From Gemmatimonadota bacterium (GTDB lineage Bacteria; Gemmatimonadota; Gemmatimonadetes; Longimicrobiales; Gaopeijiaceae), in assembly GCA_013002885.1 (NCBI GenBank), contig JABDLS010000042.1, positions 16,782 through 80,781 of the forward strand: DNA of 64,000 nucleotides, in the 5' to 3' direction. This document shows positions 54,328-64,000 of the stretch, piece after piece. Made by a program: the position numbers and the translations under genes. The notes beneath the pieces were generated by a model. It did no database searches and was not told the DNA's origin. It saw only the letters and a program-made list of their open reading frames with translations. Each line of letters begins with the position of its first letter. Position 1 is the stretch's first letter.

Positions 54328-55485
54328 GTGAGCTACAAGAGCGGGCGGCACTTCCTTCAGCTACCGGGCCCGACCAACACGCCCGAGCGTGTTCTTCGTG
54401 CCATGTCGAAGCCCACCATCGACCACCGTGGCGCCGAGTTCAAAGAGCTCACCCACCGGCTTCTCGAAGGTCTGAGCGCCGTGTTCAAGACAGAGCACAC
54501 GGTCATCATCTATCCGGCGTCGGGGAGCGGCGCGTGGGAAGCGACGCTGGCGAACGTGCTGAACAAGGGAGACAGGGTCCTCTCCTTCCAGCAGGGCTTC
54601 TTCGCCGGGAAGTGGGCAGAGACGGCGACCCGGTTCGGCCTGGACGTGCGCGTCGAGTCCTGGGATCCGAGACGGGGACTCACGGTCGATGCCGCCATGG
54701 ACGCCCTGGACTCGGACCATGAGATCAAAGCGGTCCTCGTCGTCCACAACGAGACCTCCACCGGCGTCACCTCCGACGTCGAGGCCATTGGACGGGCCAT
54801 GAAGGAGTCGGAGCACGAGGCCTTGCTCCTGGTGGACGCCGTCTCCTCACTGGCGGCGACGGACCTCCGCCACGACGAGTGGGGCCTGGATGTGACCCTG
54901 ACCGGATCGCAGAAGGGGCTCATGCTCCCTCCCGGGCTGGCCATGGTAGCCGTGAGTCCGCGTGCCCTGGATGCGAGCCGGAGAGCGGACCTGCCCGTGT
55001 CGTACTGGAGGTGGTCGGATCACGTGGAGTCCAACGCGAACGGCGTCTTTCCCTACACGCCCGCCACACACCTGCTCTACGGGCTGGAAGAAGCCCTCGC
55101 CATGCTCGCCGAGGAGGGACTCGATCGGGTCTTCCGCCGACATGCCCGTTTCGCCGAGGCCACGCGGGCCGCAGTCGGCGCCTGGGGCCTGGAGAACTTC
55201 GCCGCCGATGCGTCGGAATCGAGCAACGCCGCTACGGCCGTCCTCGTACCCGAGGGCCACGACGCCGACGCTCTTCGTCAGGTGATCCTGGACCGGTTCG
55301 ACATGTCGCTGGGCACCGGGCTCGGACCGGTCAAGGGCAAGGTGTTTCGGATCGGGCATCTCGGTGATTTGAATGCCCTCACCCTGGCTGGCACGTTGGC
55401 GGGTGTCGAGATGGGTCTGCGCCTGGCCGGCGTCCCCCACTCCCCGGCAGGTGTGAGCGCTGCCCTGGACGTACTGTGCGCGTGA
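54328..55485 (+). CDS. Class V aminotransferase, serine/alanine-glyoxylate type
   Basis: 385-residue PLP enzyme. The cofactor lysine is Lys196 in LTGSQKGLMLPPGLA, and LLVDAVSSLAATDL holds the ring nitrogen. The N-terminus FLQLPGPTNTPERVLRAMS is typical of serine-glyoxylate aminotransferases. The GTG start at 54328 follows GGGGAGCGAGG. It heads a run of same-strand genes (TRAP transporter, hydratase, CoA-transferase) and is divergent from the 2-hydroxy-acid oxidase. The probable role is transamination of glyoxylate or a related keto acid. It is a paralogue of the serA-linked enzyme at 42684. Confidence 0.87.
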   Translation: MSYKSGRHFLQLPGPTNTPERVLRAMSKPTIDHRGAEFKELTHRLLEGLSAVFKTEHTVIIYPASGSGAWEATLANVLNKGDRVLSFQQGFFAGKWAETATRFGLDVRVESWDPRRGLTVDAAMDALDSDHEIKAVLVVHNETSTGVTSDVEAIGRAMKESEHEALLLVDAVSSLAATDLRHDEWGLDVTLTGSQKGLMLPPGLAMVAVSPRALDASRRADLPVSYWRWSDHVESNANGVFPYTPATHLLYGLEEALAMLAEEGLDRVFRRHARFAEATRAAVGAWGLENFAADASESSNAATAVLVPEGHDADALRQVILDRFDMSLGTGLGPVKGKVFRIGHLGDLNALTLAGTLAGVEMGLRLAGVPHSPAGVSAALDVLCA

Positions 55486-55544
55486 GAATGCCGTGGGACC
55501 GAGCCCTGGAGCCACGAGGCACCAGCCCGAGGAGGAACAACCCG

Positions 55545-56609
55545 ATGAGGCACGACCCGATGAGTCCGCTGACCACGAGCCCGGCCAGGAAGCGCCGGTC
55601 GACCGTGGGATGGGCGATGCTGGCCAGGCAATGGACGACCTCGGCGGGTCTGGTCGCGGCCGTCGCCATGGCTGGATGTTCGCCAGATGCCACCACGCCC
55701 AGAGAGCTCAAATTCGGGCACGTGGGTGAGCCCGGCTCCCTTTTCGCGCTCTCAGCCGACGAGTTCGCCCGCCGGGCGAATGCCCGGCTGCCCGAGGGGT
55801 GGGAGGTGGTCACCTACGGTTCCAGCCAGCTGGGTGGGGACGAGCTCCTCTTGCAGAAGATCAAGTTGGGCACGGTGGACTTCGCCCTACCGTCCACCAT
55901 CATGTCGTCCCAGGTCGACGCGTTCGGCCTCTTCGAGATGCCGTACCTCGTGCGGGACCGGGAGCACATGGGGGTCATCGAAGACGAGGTGGTCTGGCCC
56001 CGACTGGTGCCGAGAGCCGAGGAGGCCGGGTACCGCATCATCGCCGTCTGGGAGAACGGCTTCCGGCACGTCACCAACAACCGTCAGCCCGTGCGGACGC
56101 CCGCCGATCTGGCTGGAGTCAAGCTCCGGACACCCAGTGGCGTCTGGCGCCTCAAACTCTTCCAGGCGCTGGGCGCGAACCCCACACCCATGGCCCTCTC
56201 GGAGGTGTTCATCGCCCTGCAGACCGGGGTCATCGACGGTCAAGAGAACCCTCTCGCCCAGATCTGGGGGTCGAAGTTGTACGAGGTCCAGGACTACCTG
56301 TCCCTCACCGGCCACGTCTACACGCCGGCTTATGTCGTCACGTCGCCAGCGCGATGGGATGGTTTGCCTGAAGACGTGCGAGCCATCCTCGAGGAGGAGG
56401 CCCGTGCGACCCAGGCCTACGTCTACGAGACCGCGGCGCGGCTGGACGAGGACCTCCTGGAGCGCATCCGGGCCGAGGGCGTGGAGATCAACGACCCCGA
56501 TCCGCAGCCCTTCCTGGACGCGGCGGCACCGTTGTATGCCGAGTTCGTCACCGAGGTGGCAGGCGCCGAAGATCTGGTGGAGCGTGCCCAGGCTTCCGGG
56601 AGCCGATAG
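55545..56609 (+). CDS. TRAP transporter solute-binding subunit, DctP-like
   Basis: 354-residue periplasmic binding protein with a lipoprotein-type signal (VAMAGCSPD), so probably membrane-tethered. DctP features include LKFGHVGEPGSLFALSADEF, QLGGDELLLQKIKLGTVDF and the substrate-domain segment GVKLRTPSGVWRLKLFQALG, with the conserved arginine that binds carboxylates. It ends shortly before the small membrane subunit. ATG 55545 is favoured over earlier in-frame starts because AGGAGG lies nine bases upstream. The ligand is probably a carboxylate of unknown identity. Confidence 0.88.
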   Translation: MRHDPMSPLTTSPARKRRSTVGWAMLARQWTTSAGLVAAVAMAGCSPDATTPRELKFGHVGEPGSLFALSADEFARRANARLPEGWEVVTYGSSQLGGDELLLQKIKLGTVDFALPSTIMSSQVDAFGLFEMPYLVRDREHMGVIEDEVVWPRLVPRAEEAGYRIIAVWENGFRHVTNNRQPVRTPADLAGVKLRTPSGVWRLKLFQALGANPTPMALSEVFIALQTGVIDGQENPLAQIWGSKLYEVQDYLSLTGHVYTPAYVVTSPARWDGLPEDVRAILEEEARATQAYVYETAARLDEDLLERIRAEGVEINDPDPQPFLDAAAPLYAEFVTEVAGAEDLVERAQASGSR

Positions 56610-56615
56610 ACCCAC

Positions 56616-57209
56616 GTGACGAGGCCGTCGGGGGGCGACCACGAGTCGAGAGGGGGCTCTGCCCCGGAGTCCACCCTCCGACGAACCCTCCGCACCACAC
56701 TCGAGGTCGTCGTGCTCGTCCTCATGGCGTCGTTGGCCGTCGTCGTCGTCGTGGGCGTCGGATTCCGGAAAGCGGGGGCGTCCCTGGTCTGGTACGACGA
56801 GGTGGCCTCCATCCTCCTGGCGTGGCTGACGTACTACGGTGCCGCTCTCGCCGCGCTCCATCGGGCCCACATCGGCATGCCCACCCTCGTCGACAAGATG
56901 CGTGGGACGCTGAGGAAGGTCACCGTCCTGGCCGGCGAGGTATGCACCCTTGCCTTCTTCGGCGTTCTCACCTGGGCGGGCATACGCGTCCTCACCGTGC
57001 TGGGCGGCACGACCCTGGTGTCCCTGCCGTCGATTCCCATGTGGGTGGCCCAATCGGTCATCCCCATCGGGGGGGTGCTGTTCATCGTCGCTGAGCTCCT
57101 CTCGATACCCGATGCCCTGCGGGAGCCCGTGGAGGAGGTCGCCGCCGCTTCGCCCTTTACCGTGACGCCTTCGGCGGAGGAGCCGGACGGTGGGGACCGA
57201 TCGCCATGA
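56616..57209 (+). CDS. TRAP transporter small permease, DctQ-like
   Basis: 197-residue protein with four hydrophobic helices: LEVVVLVLMASLAVVVVVG; LVWYDEVASILLAWLTYYG, with the DctQ-typical WxDE-like segment; VLAGEVCTLAFFGVLTWA; and WVAQSVIPIGGVLFIVAELL. It begins with a GTG six bases after the binding-protein stop, and its TGA overlaps the DctM start by ATGA. The C-terminal tail is longer and more acidic than usual. Confidence 0.88.
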   Translation: MTRPSGGDHESRGGSAPESTLRRTLRTTLEVVVLVLMASLAVVVVVGVGFRKAGASLVWYDEVASILLAWLTYYGAALAALHRAHIGMPTLVDKMRGTLRKVTVLAGEVCTLAFFGVLTWAGIRVLTVLGGTTLVSLPSIPMWVAQSVIPIGGVLFIVAELLSIPDALREPVEEVAAASPFTVTPSAEEPDGGDRSP

Positions 57210-58492
57210 GCCTACTGGGCATCGGGCTCCTGCTGCTCGTCCTCGTCGTGCTGGGGGTGCCTATCGCCATCGCGCTGGGCTTCGTGGCCCTGGTCGCGAT
57301 GATCGCCGGCCCAGGGGGCGTGGGCTCCATTCCCAACGCCGCCCTGGTCATGTTCGACGGGGCGACGTCCTTCCCCCTCATCGCCATCCCCCTCTTCATC
57401 CTGGCGGGGGCTATCATGAACGCGTCGGGCATCAGCCGACGCCTCATCGCCTTTGCCTCGGCGTGCGTGGGCTTCATCCGCGGTGGCCTGTCCATGGTCA
57501 CCATCAGCGCTTCTCTCTTCTTCGCCGAGATCAGTGGTTCTGCCGTCGCCGATGTGGCGGCCCTGGGCTCCATCCTCATCCCGGCCATGAAGAAGAAGGG
57601 GTACTCGAAGGCCTTCGCCGCTGCCGTCACCTCGTCGTCGGCGACACTGGCGGTCATCATCCCGCCCTCCATCCCCATGATCATCTACGGGGTGATGTCG
57701 GGCTCGTCCATCGTCGAACTCTTCGTGGCCGGCATCATCCCGGGCGTCCTCGGTGGCGGGCTCATGATGTTCGTCGCCTACCTGCTGGCCAGGAAGCACG
57801 ACTTCCCCCGGGAGGAAGCGTTTCGGATGCAGCGCGTCTGGGAGACGTTCAAGGATGCAGGGTGGGCATTGGTTCTGCCTGTCATCATACTCGGCGGGAT
57901 CTTCAGTGGGTGGGTCACGGCGACGGAAGGTGCCGGTCTCGCCGTAGTGGCCGCCATCTTCATCGGCGGCGTCATCTACCGGGAGTTGGACGCCACGGAA
58001 CTCCGCAGGGCGATGCTCGAAGGAGGACAGCAGACGGCGGTGGTGATGCTCCTCGTGGCGGCGTCTGCGCTCCTGGGTGACTACCTCACCGAGGTGCGCG
58101 TTCCTCAGCGTGTGGCCACCGGGATCATGGAGCTGACACAGGCTCGCTGGGCCATCCTTTTACTGCTCAACGGATTCTTCCTCGTCATAGGACTCTTTCT
58201 TCACTCGGCCGCAGCGATCATCCTGGTAGTACCGATCGTGATGCCGTTGGTGCAGGCCGCCGGCATCGATCCCGTACACTTCGGACTCATCGTGACGCTC
58301 AATCTCGGCATTGGACAGCAGACCCCTCCCGTAGCTTCCGTCCTCGTCACCGCGTGCTCTGTGGCCAAGGCCGATATCTGGGAAGTGAGCAAGGTGAACG
58401 TCTACTTCGTCGCCGTGCTCGTGACGATGCTGGTGCTCGTCACGTATGTGCCGGTCGTGCCCATGGCCCTCGTCGAGCTCTTCTACCGATGA
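57206..58492 (+). CDS. TRAP transporter large permease, DctM-like
   Basis: 428-residue inner-membrane permease with about 12 helices, the Na+-coupled transport subunit of a TRAP system. Characteristic segments are FPLIAIPLFILAGAIMNASG, SMVTISASLFFAEISGSAVA, VIIPPSIPMIIYGVMSGSSI and NLGIGQQTPPVASVLVTAC. It is coupled to dctQ upstream (ATGA) and to the enoyl-CoA hydratase downstream (ATGA). The transporter and the acyl-CoA enzyme are therefore made together, which links uptake to CoA-dependent breakdown of the same compound. Confidence 0.93.
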   Translation: MSLLGIGLLLLVLVVLGVPIAIALGFVALVAMIAGPGGVGSIPNAALVMFDGATSFPLIAIPLFILAGAIMNASGISRRLIAFASACVGFIRGGLSMVTISASLFFAEISGSAVADVAALGSILIPAMKKKGYSKAFAAAVTSSSATLAVIIPPSIPMIIYGVMSGSSIVELFVAGIIPGVLGGGLMMFVAYLLARKHDFPREEAFRMQRVWETFKDAGWALVLPVIILGGIFSGWVTATEGAGLAVVAAIFIGGVIYRELDATELRRAMLEGGQQTAVVMLLVAASALLGDYLTEVRVPQRVATGIMELTQARWAILLLLNGFFLVIGLFLHSAAAIILVVPIVMPLVQAAGIDPVHFGLIVTLNLGIGQQTPPVASVLVTACSVAKADIWEVSKVNVYFVAVLVTMLVLVTYVPVVPMALVELFYR

Positions 58493-59274
58493 GCGAAGGC
58501 GCGAGGGTCGTCGTCGAGATCGATCGCCCCATCGCGACGGTGCGTCTCGACAGACCGGCCCGCCACAACGTCCTCGACGGAGACGGGTGGCGCCGCCTGG
58601 GAGAGGTGTTCGACGAGATCTCCGAAAACGACGACGTCCGAGCCGTGGCCGTCCGTGGGACCGGCGGGCGTGCTTTCTCCGCTGGCTCCGACATCGCCGC
58701 CTTCGAGGAACAGCGATCCGAGCCCGAGGACGTCCGCTCCTACTCGGGGGCCATCGGCCACGCCCTCAATGCCATCCAGGGGTGCCGGCACCCGACGGTT
58801 GCTATCGTGGAGGGACTCTGCGTGGGCGGTGGCCTGGAGATCGCAGCGTGCTGTGATCTCCGGGTGTGTGGAGAGTCGAGCCGCTTCGGCGCGCCCATCA
58901 ACCGCCTCGGGCTGACCATGTCGTACGACGAGCTCGAGCCCCTCGTTCGGCTCCTCGGCCCCGGCACCGTCCTGGAGATCCTTCTCAGCGGAGAGTTGGT
59001 CGACGCGAAGCGGGCCCTCTCCGTGGGCTTGGTGAATCGGGTGATGCCGGACGGCGCCGTCGTGGAACACGGCTACGGCCTCGTTGCCCGGATCGCAGCC
59101 GGTGCACCGCTGGTGAACCGTTGGCACAAGAAGTTCGTGCGCAGGCTTCTCGACCGCCGACCCATCGAGGCGGAGGAGCGGGAGGAGGTCCACGAGGCGT
59201 TCGAGACGGCCGACTACCGGGAGGGACGCGAGGCATTCCTGGACAAGCGCAAGCCTGATTTTTCCGGGGAGTAG
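58489..59274 (+). CDS. Enoyl-CoA hydratase/isomerase family protein
   Basis: 261-residue crotonase-fold enzyme. Oxyanion-hole and CoA-binding segments are VRLDRPARHNVLDG, GRAFSAGSDIAAFEEQ and EGLCVGGGLEIAACCD. The ATG at 58489 overlaps the TRAP permease stop, so it is expressed with the transporter. The next gene is a family III CoA-transferase 45 bp on. Together they suggest that an imported acid is converted to a CoA thioester and then hydrated or rearranged. It is distinct from the paralogue at 31052. Confidence 0.9.
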   Translation: MSEGARVVVEIDRPIATVRLDRPARHNVLDGDGWRRLGEVFDEISENDDVRAVAVRGTGGRAFSAGSDIAAFEEQRSEPEDVRSYSGAIGHALNAIQGCRHPTVAIVEGLCVGGGLEIAACCDLRVCGESSRFGAPINRLGLTMSYDELEPLVRLLGPGTVLEILLSGELVDAKRALSVGLVNRVMPDGAVVEHGYGLVARIAAGAPLVNRWHKKFVRRLLDRRPIEAEEREEVHEAFETADYREGREAFLDKRKPDFSGE

Positions 59275-59319
59275 CTTGGGTCGCTCAATCCCGCCAGGTC
59301 GACCACGGCCCTCGATCCC

Positions 59320-60570
59320 GTGACCACGACTCCCCTCGAAGGCGTTCGCGTGGTGGAGTTGGCCCACATCATGGCCGGCCCGGTGTGTGGGCTCATGCTC
59401 GCCGACCTCGGCGCCGACGTGGTCAAGGTCGAACGCCTGCCTGCCGGCGACGGCTCGAGGGGCTTCGTCCCTCCTGACGTCGGCGGGGAGTCGGCGGCCT
59501 TCATGATGTTGAACCGGGGCAAGCGTGGCGTCGCCCTGGACCTCCGCGATCCCGAGGGTGTGGAGATCGTTCGCCGCCTCCTCGATGACGCGGATGTGGT
59601 CATCGAGAATTTCAGGGTGGGTACCATGGACACGATCGGTCTCGGGTGGGAGACCGTGTCCGACGCCAACCCTCGGCTCGTCTACTGCCAGATCACCGGC
59701 TTCGGGCGGACGGGCCCACTCGCCCATCAGGGTGGCTTCGACCTCATCGCCCAGGGTTACTCGGGCCTCATGAGCATCACGGGCGAAGGCCCTGGCCGGG
59801 CACCGGTGAAGGTGGGCGCCCCGATAACCGATATCACCGCCGGGCTTCTAGGCGCGCTCGGTGTCGTATCGGCCCTCTTTCAGAGAGAGCGCACGGGGCG
59901 AGGCTCCCTCGTCGACACCTCCCTCTACGAGGCGGGAGTCGCTCACACCTACTGGCAGAGCGCCATCGCCCTTGCCGGCGGAGGTTCCTCTGGGCCTCTG
60001 GGGTCGGCGCACCCACTATCGGCGCCGTACCAGGCTTTCCGCACATCCGATGGATGGATCAACGTCGGCGCGTCCAACGAAGCCACGTGGCGAAGACTCA
60101 TCGATGCCCTGGGCCGCAACGACCTCGCCACCGATCCTCGCTTCTCCACCAACGCCGACCGCATGGGCAACCTCGAGGAACTGGTCGACGTTCTCTCCCG
60201 CGAATTCGCATCGCGAGGTACGGAGGACTGGCTCACGACGTTGGAGGTGGCGGGGGTTCCCGCGGGTCCGGTCGCGTCCGTCGGTGAGATGCTGGAGCAC
60301 CCGCACACCGAAGCGCGGGAGATGGTTCAGAAGGTCCGACACGCCAGACTGGGAACGGTGCGATCTCTCGGGGTCCCGGTAAAGGTCCGGGAATCTGCGG
60401 CGCGAGGCAGCGGGGATCGCGTTGAGGGCTCCCACGGGCGCGGCGCACCGGTCCTCGGCGAGCACACGCGAGAGGTTCTCCTGTCCGGCGGTTGGTCTGC
60501 AGCCGAAGTATCGGATCTGACAGAGCGAGGGGTCGTCGTCGACGGCGGAGCACAGAACCGTGTCCGGTGA
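59320..60570 (+). CDS. Family III CoA-transferase (CaiB/BaiF type)
   Basis: 416-residue enzyme that moves CoA between carboxylic acids. N-terminal features are VVELAHIMAGPVCGLMLADLG and VKVERLPAGDG. The nucleophilic aspartate is Asp141 in GGFDLIAQGYSG, and GSLVDTSLYEAGVA is another family motif. The start is a GTG at 59320. It is the activation step for the putative TRAP-imported acid. Its end overlaps the small Cys/His protein gene by 11 bp. Confidence 0.9.
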   Translation: MTTTPLEGVRVVELAHIMAGPVCGLMLADLGADVVKVERLPAGDGSRGFVPPDVGGESAAFMMLNRGKRGVALDLRDPEGVEIVRRLLDDADVVIENFRVGTMDTIGLGWETVSDANPRLVYCQITGFGRTGPLAHQGGFDLIAQGYSGLMSITGEGPGRAPVKVGAPITDITAGLLGALGVVSALFQRERTGRGSLVDTSLYEAGVAHTYWQSAIALAGGGSSGPLGSAHPLSAPYQAFRTSDGWINVGASNEATWRRLIDALGRNDLATDPRFSTNADRMGNLEELVDVLSREFASRGTEDWLTTLEVAGVPAGPVASVGEMLEHPHTEAREMVQKVRHARLGTVRSLGVPVKVRESAARGSGDRVEGSHGRGAPVLGEHTREVLLSGGWSAAEVSDLTERGVVVDGGAQNRVR

Positions 60571-60968: not shown

Positions 60969-61682
60969 CTACGGCAGCGACCAGAATTCTCCGGTAAGGC
61001 CGACGCTCTCGAGAATGGCGCGGGATTCCTCGACGCTTCGCCCTCGCCAGTCGGCGTCCAGCCTTCCGCGGTACCACGCCTTGGCGAGTTCCCACACCGT
61101 GCTCAAATCGAGAACCGCGCCTTTATCGTAGCGCCGCTCGGTGAGCCAGGCTTCAACGTCGGCTTCCGACCGGAAGGCGAGGTAGTTCGCTCAGGTGAAG
61201 CCGATGTCGTCCCAAGCACGGCGCAGCGGCGTGAGGAAGTGGATGACCGTTTTCGAATCTCCTACCACGTTCCACCGTTTGACGCCGAACTCCAATGGCT
61301 CGCCGCTGGCGGGACACGTCGTCGCAGTCCAGCCGTCCTTCCTGAGCACCGCGGGCACGGCGAGCGCGTCCCACGCGCAGTTGGCGTGGCACACGAAGTC
61401 GCTGGTCTCCACGGGATAGGCGGTGGACCGGGCCGAGAACGGATGAGCCATGGTCACGGCCTCGCCGTCTTCGCTGAGGGCGAGCTGATGGGCATCCCGC
61501 AACTTGAGCAGAGAGCCCTTCACTCTGGCGGACCCCGCTCCGGAGGTGGCGGCCAGGTCGTCGAGGGAGGGTGCGTGTCCCGATCGGGCGAAGGATGCAT
61601 AGATCTGGGTACGAACCATCCAGTCGAACTCGCCGAGGGGGACGTCACCTCGAGCGCGCGCATATCCCGGGAAGTCGTTCAC
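60969..61682 (-). CDS. MerB-family (organomercurial lyase-like) selenoprotein (in-frame TGA = Sec164)
   Basis: 237-residue protein if the TGA at 61191-61193 is read as selenocysteine; it ends at a TAG at 60969. The first 163 residues contain the MerB active-site segment FVCHANCAWDALAVPAVL, where Cys102 and Asp105 match Cys96 and Asp99 of E. coli MerB. After VIHFLTPLRRAWDDIGFT the TGA occupies the place of catalytic Cys159; the spacing to the following Trp (15 residues) is identical. The frame then continues in family style (FRSEADVEAWLTER, WELAKAWYRGRLDADWRG, LGLTG-like VGLTGEFWSLP). The GTG at 61682 overlaps the P1-peptidase stop (GTGA). A SECIS-like hairpin follows the TGA. A mutation or sequencing error is the alternative. 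Confidence 0.85.
61159..61180 (-). promoter_or_regulatory. Candidate bacterial SECIS element of the MerB-like gene
   Basis: In the mRNA, CUUCC pairs with GGAAG around the loop GGUC (61163-61176). Below a C/C mismatch, UCG pairs with CGA (out to 61159-61180). The loop starts 19 nt after the UGA and opens with GG. The GGU loop and its distance resemble the E. coli fdhF SECIS, whose loop G and U contact SelB. This fold lies wholly inside the coding sequence, as bacterial SECIS elements do. Confidence 0.78.
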
Positions 61683-62842
61683 CGCACGACGCCGTAGCGC
61701 TGGAGGATCTCGAGGGTCTCGGCTAGCGGAAGCGCCTGCACGGTTCGACCGTTGCTGGTCACCGTCTCGCCCTTGAAGAGGGAGTTGTAGATGGCCTCCT
61801 CGGTGGCTTCGACCGTAGCCTGGAAGAGAGAGCTCACGGCGTCGTTGGCCAGGTCGTCGACGGCGGACATGGGTCCGGTGCGGCCCCTGCGGACGCCGTT
61901 CGCCGTGGAAAACGCGATCACGTAGTCCCCGGATCCGTTGCTGGCGTAGGAGCCGGTTCTCGACAGACCCATGATGGCCCGACGGGCCACCCGCTCCAGG
62001 TTCCGATCGGAGAGCGGGGCGTCGGTGGCAACGACGATCATGATCGAGCCCCACTCCTGGACGTCGTCGTCGGGATCGTAGTCCTCGTTGCCTCCGATCT
62101 GGTTGGCGAAGGCGTACTGACCCAACTCACGACCCACGGGAGCGCCGTCGATCTGGAGGATGCCCCCGAAGTTCGACTGGACCAGTACACCCACGGTGTA
62201 CCCACCCAGACTCTGGGGGAGGACGCGGCTGCTGGTGCCGATACCACCCTTCCAACCGAAGGCGACGGTGCCGGCTCCAGCCCCTACGGCTCCCTCCTCC
62301 ACCGCGCCGCCGGTCGCCCCTTCGAGGGCAGCCACCACGTGTTCGGGCTCCACCGGACGGGAGCGGATGTCGTTCAGGCCACCGTCGTTCGTTTCTCCGA
62401 CCACGGCGTTCAGCGACCGGACGTCCTCCATTCCGTCCCGCTCCAGCATCCAGCCGACCATGGCGTCGGCGGCCTTCCACACGCAGAGCGTGCACGTGAG
62501 AAGGATGGGTGTTTCCAACTCCCCGAGTTCTCTGACTTGCGTAACCCCGAGGAGCTTCCCGTAGCCGTTCCCTACATGCATCGCGGCGGGGACACGCGAC
62601 GTGTAGGCGTTTCCGGAGTGAGGCACGATGGCGGTCACGCCCGTCCGTATGTCCGGTTCTCGGACGACGGTGCTGTGCCCGACCCGCACTCCGGCGACGT
62701 CGGTGATGGCGTTATGGGTGCCCGTTGGGAAGATGCCGACCTCGATGCCCAGGTCGCGGGCCCGGGGACGGTCGGACTCCTGGCTCACGACACCTGCGGG
62801 AAACACGGCCATGGCGCAGGCGATGAAGAGAATGAGGGGCAC
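61679..62842 (-). CDS. Secreted P1-family aminopeptidase (DmpA-like)
   Basis: 387-residue self-processing Ntn-hydrolase-like peptidase related to L-aminopeptidase D-Ala-esterase/amidase DmpA. A hydrophobic export signal (LILFIACAMAVFPAG) is followed by the P1 start IEVGIFPTGTHNAITDVAGV. The nucleophile generated on autocleavage is Ser223 in VGVLVQSNFGG, preceded by GAGTVAFGWKGGIGTSSR. The GTG at 62842 with TGGAG upstream is preferred over a TTG at 62863 overlapping the ctaB stop. The TGA overlaps the MerB-like GTG (GTGA). Export is likely, and it fits the peptide-scavenging theme. Confidence 0.87.
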   Translation of the reverse strand: MPLILFIACAMAVFPAGVVSQESDRPRARDLGIEVGIFPTGTHNAITDVAGVRVGHSTVVREPDIRTGVTAIVPHSGNAYTSRVPAAMHVGNGYGKLLGVTQVRELGELETPILLTCTLCVWKAADAMVGWMLERDGMEDVRSLNAVVGETNDGGLNDIRSRPVEPEHVVAALEGATGGAVEEGAVGAGAGTVAFGWKGGIGTSSRVLPQSLGGYTVGVLVQSNFGGILQIDGAPVGRELGQYAFANQIGGNEDYDPDDDVQEWGSIMIVVATDAPLSDRNLERVARRAIMGLSRTGSYASNGSGDYVIAFSTANGVRRGRTGPMSAVDDLANDAVSSLFQATVEATEEAIYNSLFKGETVTSNGRTVQALPLAETLEILQRYGVVR

Positions 62843-62859
62843 GTCGGGATCTCCAGCAT

Positions 62860-63750
62860 TCAAAGTCGGAACGTGTCGAACAGCATGAGGCCCAACAGCA
62901 CCGGATGATAGAGGAGTGACGCGAAGAACACCCGTCTCGCCGTCGCCTCTGTCAGGTCACGGGCGGCCGCCACGGCCGTGCCGAGGAAGGCCAAGCCGAT
63001 CAGGGTGGCGCCCACGGTGTAGGGCGTCCCCACGTAATCGAGGGCGGCGGGCACCCAACTCACCGGAAGAAGCACGGCCGTAGAGACGATCATCATCCAC
63101 CCTATGGCTTTCGCCCCTCCGGGCGGGACCAACTTGAAGCCCACCCGGGCGTAGTCGTCGCGGAGCATCCACGCCAGCCCGAGGACGTGGGGCAGTTGCC
63201 AGAGATAGCCGATGGCGAACATGGCCAGACCTCCGGCGTCGACGACGCCCGTGACCGCGGTCCACCCGATGAGCATCGGCAGCGCGCCGGGAATGGCTCC
63301 TGCCAGGGTGGCTACGAAGGAGTGGCGCTTCAGCGGCGTGTACACGCCATGATACATGAGGCCGCTGGCGGCGGTCAGCAGGGCGGGCAGGGCTCCCACA
63401 GCCAGTGCAAGCCAGACCAGACCTCCCATGAGAAGGACCGTACCGAACGCGAGGGCGGCCATGGGGCTCACGCGGCCGGTGGGGAGCGGGCGGCCCCGGG
63501 TGCGGACCATGACGGCGTCCAACTCGCGTTCGACCCATTGGTTGAGCGAGAGGGCGCCTGCCGTCGCGAGCCCCGTGCCCACCATCACGTGCAGGGCCAT
63601 CGCGAGGGCGACGTCACCTCCGCTGGCGACGAAGGCGCTGACCCCGGCGGTGATCATCACATACCCGGCTATGCCGGGCTTCGTCAGCTCGTAGTAGGCC
63701 CGAAGTCGAGAGTGTCCTGTCGCTTCGATGTGCGCTTCGGCGTGGTCCAC
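62860..63750 (-). CDS. ctaB: Protoheme IX farnesyltransferase (heme o synthase)
   Basis: UbiA-superfamily membrane enzyme (296 aa, about nine helices) that attaches farnesyl to heme b to make heme o for terminal oxidases. The prenyl-diphosphate motif region NQWVERELDAVMVRTRGRPLP and the second polar loop YTPLKRHSFVATLAGAIPGA are conserved, as is RDDYARVGFKLVP. The N-terminus ELTKPGIAGYVMITAG is family-typical. The GTG at 63750 is used because the longer frame is Pro/Arg-rich noise. Cytochrome oxidase genes are not in the window. The P1 peptidase follows closely. Confidence 0.92.
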   Translation of the reverse strand: MDHAEAHIEATGHSRLRAYYELTKPGIAGYVMITAGVSAFVASGGDVALAMALHVMVGTGLATAGALSLNQWVERELDAVMVRTRGRPLPTGRVSPMAALAFGTVLLMGGLVWLALAVGALPALLTAASGLMYHGVYTPLKRHSFVATLAGAIPGALPMLIGWTAVTGVVDAGGLAMFAIGYLWQLPHVLGLAWMLRDDYARVGFKLVPPGGAKAIGWMMIVSTAVLLPVSWVPAALDYVGTPYTVGATLIGLAFLGTAVAAARDLTEATARRVFFASLLYHPVLLGLMLFDTFRL

Positions 63751-63850
63751 GGCCCGGTCCCCGGGGGCGGATGGAAGAGACGCCGACGGCCGGAATGGTC
63801 GGCCGCCGGCGTCCGTGTCCCGAAAGGTACCAGTAGGCCGTCGGAGAAGT

Positions 63851-64000
63851 CTACTCGGCGCGCAGCGCCCGCACGGGATCGACACGGGAGGCTCGGCGTG
63901 CAGGGAGGTAGGTGGCGGTGGCGGCCACCAGTGCGAGGACGACGGGTGCAGCGACGATGGCCAGGGGATCGAGGGCCCCGGCACCGTAGAGGAACTGATC
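63851..64000 (-). CDS. FtsX/MacB-type ABC permease, C-terminal end
   Basis: The last 49 codons of a minus-strand gene that runs off the right edge and ends at a TAG (63851-63853). The visible part is one transmembrane helix (LAIVAAPVVLALVAATATYL) followed by the standard permease ending PARRASRVDPVRALRAE. This resembles the duplicated permease at 48182, so it may be another ADOP or MacB protein. Nothing more can be said without upstream sequence. Confidence 0.8.
   Translation of the reverse strand, partial: DQFLYGAGALDPLAIVAAPVVLALVAATATYLPARRASRVDPVRALRAE

Follow-up and report, generated by a model that had tools for sequence, protein, structure and literature searches.

A MerB-family gene with a predicted selenocysteine at the catalytic-cysteine position, and its UGA- and UAG-coded relatives in bacteria

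Analysis of a stretch of 64,000 nucleotides (nt) from a Gemmatimonadota bacterium (assembly GCA_013002885.1, contig JABDLS010000042.1, positions 16,782 to 80,781; "the window" below) revealed a gene for a MerB-family protein whose reading frame is divided by a single TGA. We consider it likely that this UGA, which falls at the place of Cys159 of E. coli MerB, is read as selenocysteine (Sec) by way of a hairpin in the message, and that the product is an organomercurial lyase in which Cys102, Asp105 and Sec164 make up the active site. We refer to the gene and its relatives as Sec-MerB. That a Sec takes the place of Cys159 had been proposed in an earlier note made from the letters of the window alone. 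The proposal was strengthened by our finding that the column holds either Cys or Sec codons in homologues, that the hairpin occurs only in forms with TGA or TAG, and that the genome encodes a selenocysteine tRNA (tRNA-Sec) and selB.

Reading through the TGA, we found that residues 82-204 of the protein matched PF03243 with 84 bits, against a cut-off of 27. The part before the TGA scored 43.7 bits by itself and the part after it 23.3 bits, which is under the cut-off. All 37 members of set A2 matched PF03243 at E <= 0.001. In a profile of the Sec-MerB family, Sec164 aligned with Cys159 of E. coli MerB, unambiguously so when the structure of the C160S mutant (3f2g) was used, and Cys102 and Asp105 aligned with Cys96 and Asp99. 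The complete MerB active-site set is in register, with Sec instead of Cys at the third place. At the Asp105 column, the TAG row and all 89 TGA rows of the alignment had Asp, as did 22 of the 25 Cys rows. A structure model of the window protein, with Sec modelled as Cys, had a mean predicted local distance difference test (pLDDT) score of 94. The gene is on the minus strand (Table 1). The division of a MerB-like frame by one TGA and the three residue equivalences had all been described in the earlier note, and all of them held.

Two sets of homologues were compared. The first comprised 148 genomes, including the window's own, and 30 of these had a match. Exactly one TGA was present in 27 of the 30, always in the same column; the other three were a Cys form (L037), a match that ended before the site (L038) and a broken frame (L039). 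The second set was the best 80 of 403 loci found in a collection of named genomes; these 80 were chosen for their similarity to the query and are biased to the Sec form for that reason; the site codon was TGA in 62 of them, Cys in 17 and TAG in one. Every sense-codon homologue that was aligned had Cys at the TGA column (25/25), and conservation after the TGA was equal to that before it. Both comparisons, with the Cys of homologues and with related genomes, had been suggested in the earlier note and came out in favor of a Sec codon. L038 and L039 (the latter with two TGAs) were left out of the alignment counts, and P0044 and P0046, in which the site was missing or the C-terminus was unlike the others, were left out of both alignment and tree. 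Some entries are redundant, as L013/L014, L113/L136 and several further loci represent the same or near-identical genes, and weak second matches were observed in genomes G090, G066 and G032.

By record label, the TGA forms belong to eight phyla (Gemmatimonadota, Chloroflexota, Acidobacteriota, Calditrichota, Fidelibacterota, Vulcanimicrobiota, Thermomicrobiota and Actinomycetota), and their sources are almost exclusively metagenome bins. The named relatives closest to the window are Gemmatimonadota. One label looks wrong: L071 (VXNP01000090.1, labelled Gammaproteobacteria bacterium SB0662_bin_11) carries a Sec-MerB that lies within a Gemmatimonadota clade. A branch of Cys forms near the Sec forms (L037 from G098, P0027 and P0035) has Cys replacing the catalytic Asp, in the motif CAWC or CLWC, and these proteins perhaps have a different chemistry. 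Among viral sequences, 28 stretches fit a pattern and none of them encoded a relative.

The earlier note had pointed to a hairpin with a GGUC loop 19 nt past the UGA. We located this hairpin and found it conserved in the TGA and TAG forms only: every one of the 89 TGA rows, and the TAG row too, had TTCCGG 18 nt past the first base of the stop codon, and none of the 18 Cys rows for which DNA was available had it there. As given in the accessible part of PMC13188914, the model of the bacterial selenocysteine insertion sequence (bSECIS) has G in the first two loop positions, a distance of 16-37 nt from the UGA and an energy of -7.5 kcal/mol or lower; the GGUC loop agrees with this in its G and lies inside the distance range. 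We then compared codon choice at 72 distinct loci (de-duplicated on the 180 nt around the site codon, with the TAG locus included). The codons TTC (72/72), CGG (72/72) and TCG (69/69) were the sole perfectly synonymous-invariant ones, and occupied ranks 1-3 of 31 conserved columns when ordered by excess over codon usage. Stem pair 17-30 was C-G in 62 loci, U-A in five, A-U in two and U-G in one, so that it was paired in 70 of 72, compared with 61 expected if the positions were independent, which shows compensatory change. Pair 16-31 was paired in 52 loci (37.8 expected). The outer pairs 15-32 and 14-33 had no excess (30 against 35.2 expected, and 14 against 27.8), which indicates that the stem ends there. 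An Rfam scan of the window gave nothing at gathering score.

A natural control for this recoding was provided by the Geodermatophilaceae. The sole TAG locus among the best 80 (L113) is from Modestobacter excelsi, and the tRNA-Sec of that bacterium (66.9 bits), the only one checked among the TAG genomes, has the anticodon CUA; a second tRNA-Sec-like match in this genome (L132) is a tRNA-Ser. Of 112 Geodermatophilaceae genomes searched, 10 had a match. Six of these, M. excelsi among them, had TAG at exactly the site codon and had kept the hairpin, and one of the six genes had an extra TAG early in the matching stretch, ahead of the conserved part. The other matches were one Cys form without the hairpin and three weak partial ones. 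A quick tree built from 94 rows placed all six TAG forms in one clade (Shimodaira-Hasegawa-like approximate likelihood ratio test, SH-aLRT, 95). This clade lay within a larger group that also held four TGA forms (SH-aLRT 99), and the three codon states need just three changes on that tree. A stop codon whose identity shifts in step with the anticodon of tRNA-Sec is difficult to account for unless it codes for Sec. The discovery of the CUA tRNA-Sec in this family is reportedly owed to Mukai, in a paper of 2016. The selenoproteins with a UAG codon that are named in the accessible part of PMC5330540 (FDH, a UGSC-motif protein and AhpC) have the same combination of UAG and CUA tRNA-Sec as the M. 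excelsi Sec-MerB; unlike it, none of those named there is a MerB.

These data bear on two simpler accounts of the TGA. In one, it is a true stop, and the product is a truncated protein of 163 residues, left by gene decay or a sequencing error. Broken copies of Sec-MerB do exist (L038 and L039), and 44 of the 53 homologues in the protein database stop just short of the Sec site (42 by pattern and two by eye). These entries appear, from their sequences, to be stored in truncated form, and their source names include hypothetical protein, organomercurial lyase (P0012) and Alkylmercury lyase (P0051). A short product would be without the third catalytic residue, and a stop leaves the conservation past the TGA, the invariant hairpin, and the TAG at the same codon in a genome with a CUA tRNA-Sec to be accounted for. 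On the evidence of conservation, hairpin and TAG we ruled out a truncated product, a pseudogene and a sequencing error, to which we would give only a very slight chance. The genomes that hold the two broken copies (G086 for L038 and G052 for L039) still have matches to selA, selB and tRNA-Sec.

In the other account, tryptophan or some other standard residue is inserted at the UGA, through code reassignment or leaky read-through, as the open frame on both sides of the TGA would allow. Against this, the sense-codon rows all have Cys, the site is TAG in six Geodermatophilaceae, and the window's own genome has a tRNA-Sec with a UCA anticodon. Tryptophan reassignment was rejected because several related genes (e.g., L012-L017) end at TGA as a genuine terminal stop. 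Overall, we regard insertion of a standard residue as the most improbable of the explanations considered, and extremely so.

The Sec machinery of the host genomes was also surveyed. The tRNA-Sec of the window's own genome scored 69.4 bits and its selB 340 bits, in an assembly of 4.0 Mb in 156 contigs that is 89% complete. At least one of selA, selB and tRNA-Sec was found in all 27 genomes with the TGA form, and all three in 23 (selA in 26, the window's own being the one without; selB in 24; tRNA-Sec in 24). Among the 121 other genomes, which are related and not independent, selA was found in 75, selB in 77 and tRNA-Sec in 76. Dropping tRNA-Sec matches of less than 55 bits (G021, G048, G085, G101 and G102) reduced that list from 105 to 100. 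When selD was searched in 59 genomes it was present in 39, and 34 of these 39 had one in-frame TGA; SelD of this lineage is probably itself a selenoprotein.

Several observations weigh against the view that Sec-MerB is a Sec-dependent organomercurial lyase. Profile searches of the 89%-complete assembly of the window's own genome did not find selA, nor selD above the cut-off; the best selD candidate, on contig C74, is the thiamine-phosphate kinase ThiL (234 against 57.5 bits). The earlier note had made its proposal depend on selA, selB and selC being in the genome, and this was borne out for selB and tRNA-Sec and not for selA. We read the absence of selA as a gap, because the assembly is incomplete and because 12 out of 13 further genomes from this genus have selA; the same number have selD. 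Three further TGA-form genomes (G009, G019 and G022) had no selB or tRNA-Sec match. The minimal window hairpin has an energy of -5.3 kcal/mol, compared with the -7.5 of the bSECIS model in the accessible part of PMC13188914, for which the folded stretch may differ; the mean over the 72 loci was -7.1 kcal/mol (range -9.6 to -2.5). In a 50-nt piece, moreover, other folds have a lower energy than the hairpin, and folding of the single sequence is not good evidence for it. The Cys rows differ in protein as well at the hairpin (FC.. or FESE), so that the contrast with them is in part one of protein sequence and alone is not decisive; the synonymous test is unaffected by this. The window protein scored well below the NCBIfam MerB models NF009710 (42.7 against 193 bits) and NF033555 (35 against 200 bits). 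Finally, no mer genes were seen among the annotated neighbors of the window gene, L063 and L113, the only loci so inspected, and no MerA, HMA, MerR or ArsR motifs in open reading frames (ORFs) of at least 90 amino acids in the flanks of 64 loci. The motif scan is a weak test, which small mer genes can escape.

The genes that do accompany Sec-MerB (Table 1) differ between lineages. Eight related loci have, as judged by BLAST clusters, a homologue of the Peptidase_S58 gene directly upstream, and the same eight have a UbiA homologue upstream as well; homologues of the genes on the opposite strand are kept in seven or eight related loci. Among the 64 loci, 16 that are each labelled Chloroflexota have the gene inside a translation locus, in the order rpsB-tsf-[Sec-MerB]-pyrH (L062-L065, L067, L068, L073, L074, L081, L083, L086, L091, L099, L107, L114 and L117). 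Three ORFs of L094 had no family match. The conserved context is lineage-specific, and no neighborhood common to all lineages was seen.

Table 1. Positions in the window of Sec-MerB, its key codons and hairpin, and the adjoining genes.
Feature	Position	Strand	Remarks
Sec-MerB gene	60969..61682	minus	237 codons from GTG to TAG, with a single in-frame TGA; PF03243 84 bits
TGA codon, predicted Sec (residue 164)	61191..61193	minus	Equivalent of E. coli MerB Cys159
Cys102 codon	61377..61379	minus	Equivalent of MerB Cys96; Cys in 115/115 aligned rows
Asp105 codon	61368..61370	minus	Equivalent of MerB Asp99
SECIS-like hairpin CUUCC-GGUC-GGAAG	61163..61176	minus	Loop GGUC at 61171-61168, 19 nt after UGA
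Peptidase_S58 gene, upstream of Sec-MerB	61679..62863	minus	Stop overlaps Sec-MerB GTG by 4 nt; Pfam on window copy
UbiA prenyltransferase family gene, upstream of peptidase	62860..63984	minus	Homologues in eight related loci
Class-V aminotransferase, TRAP transporter DctPQM, enoyl-CoA hydratase, CoA-transferase III	54328-60570	opposite to Sec-MerB	Adjoin the gene

The scores under the MerB cut-offs, and neighbors that are unrelated to mercury and change with lineage, could also mean that Sec-MerB is a selenoprotein of MerB fold with a different role: it might act on another organometal or on a thiol or selenol compound, or Cys102 and Sec164 might form a redox pair. This is an unlikely explanation in our view, yet one with some weight. 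Against it, none of the 89 TGA rows has lost any of Cys102, Asp105 and Sec164, the full active-site set of MerB, and an Asp would have no obvious reason to be there in a mere redox pair. We weighed this explanation lower because cleavage of Hg-C bonds by small-molecule selones is reported to be faster than by the corresponding sulfur compounds (PMC11639659, accessible part). Organomercurial lyase activity remains, by analogy, the most likely function of Sec-MerB.

The window protein has ~20% identity to MerB (E. coli, PDB 3f0o; MerB2, PDB 5c17), from which it differs in having a UGA codon, predicted to encode Sec, in place of Cys159 and in that no mer operon was seen around it. Another related system is SaoL, the paper on which is said to be that of Haft and Gwadz in 2023. 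SaoL is described, in the accessible part of PMC13188914, as the MerB-like organometallic lyase of the SAO system (NF040728) and as a selenoprotein with the motif CU. A Sec-containing, MerB-like SaoL already figures in the accessible parts of two reviews, so that the bare idea is not new, and the earlier note, which knew of no described Sec-containing MerB, has to be amended. Sec-MerB is like SaoL in being MerB-like and a predicted selenoprotein; unlike SaoL, with its CU, the window protein has FTU. It scored 25.2 bits against NF040728, for which the cut-off is 140, and ten other members scored 39-56.6. All 11 alignments to the SaoL model end before the Sec site. For 10 of the 11 proteins, ungapped extrapolation put the Sec at position 158 or 159 of the 159-position model, and for one at 162, so that the CU of SaoL may lie at the same place as Sec164. 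By score, the window protein is neither a canonical MerB nor a SaoL. A search of the open-access literature, which does not cover subscription papers, found no description of the Sec-MerB family and no report of a characterized enzyme that cleaves C-Hg bonds and has Sec in its active site.

How would such an enzyme work? We hypothesize that SelB recognizes the hairpin and that Sec is thereby incorporated by it at the UGA, and that the full product of 237 residues folds as MerB does. By analogy with the accepted mechanism of MerB, Cys102 and the Sec164 selenolate would hold R-Hg+ while Asp105 protonates the leaving carbon. The S and Se atoms would keep hold of the Hg(II) until it is taken away by a cellular thiol. 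Selenolates have a low pKa and a high affinity for mercury, which is bound more strongly by selenium than by sulfur; these properties would favor the capture of dilute organomercurials, e.g., methylmercury.

In its widest form, our proposal is that Sec-MerB is a selenium-dependent organomercurial lyase with a selenolate-thiolate grip on the metal, which is present in eight phyla outside mer operons, may be an overlooked sink for methylmercury, and has moved intact to the UAG-Sec code in Geodermatophilaceae. The family would have been missed because annotation ends it at the Sec codon. We see this composite as evenly poised between being right and being wrong. The occurrence of UGA and UAG at one homologous codon is a rare evolutionary control for Sec recoding, and the natural Sec and Cys forms allow the contribution of selenium to metal chemistry to be compared. 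If active, Sec-MerB would link the selenium and mercury cycles in bacteria that have no mer operon in sight beside the gene, and would bear on where methylmercury is degraded.
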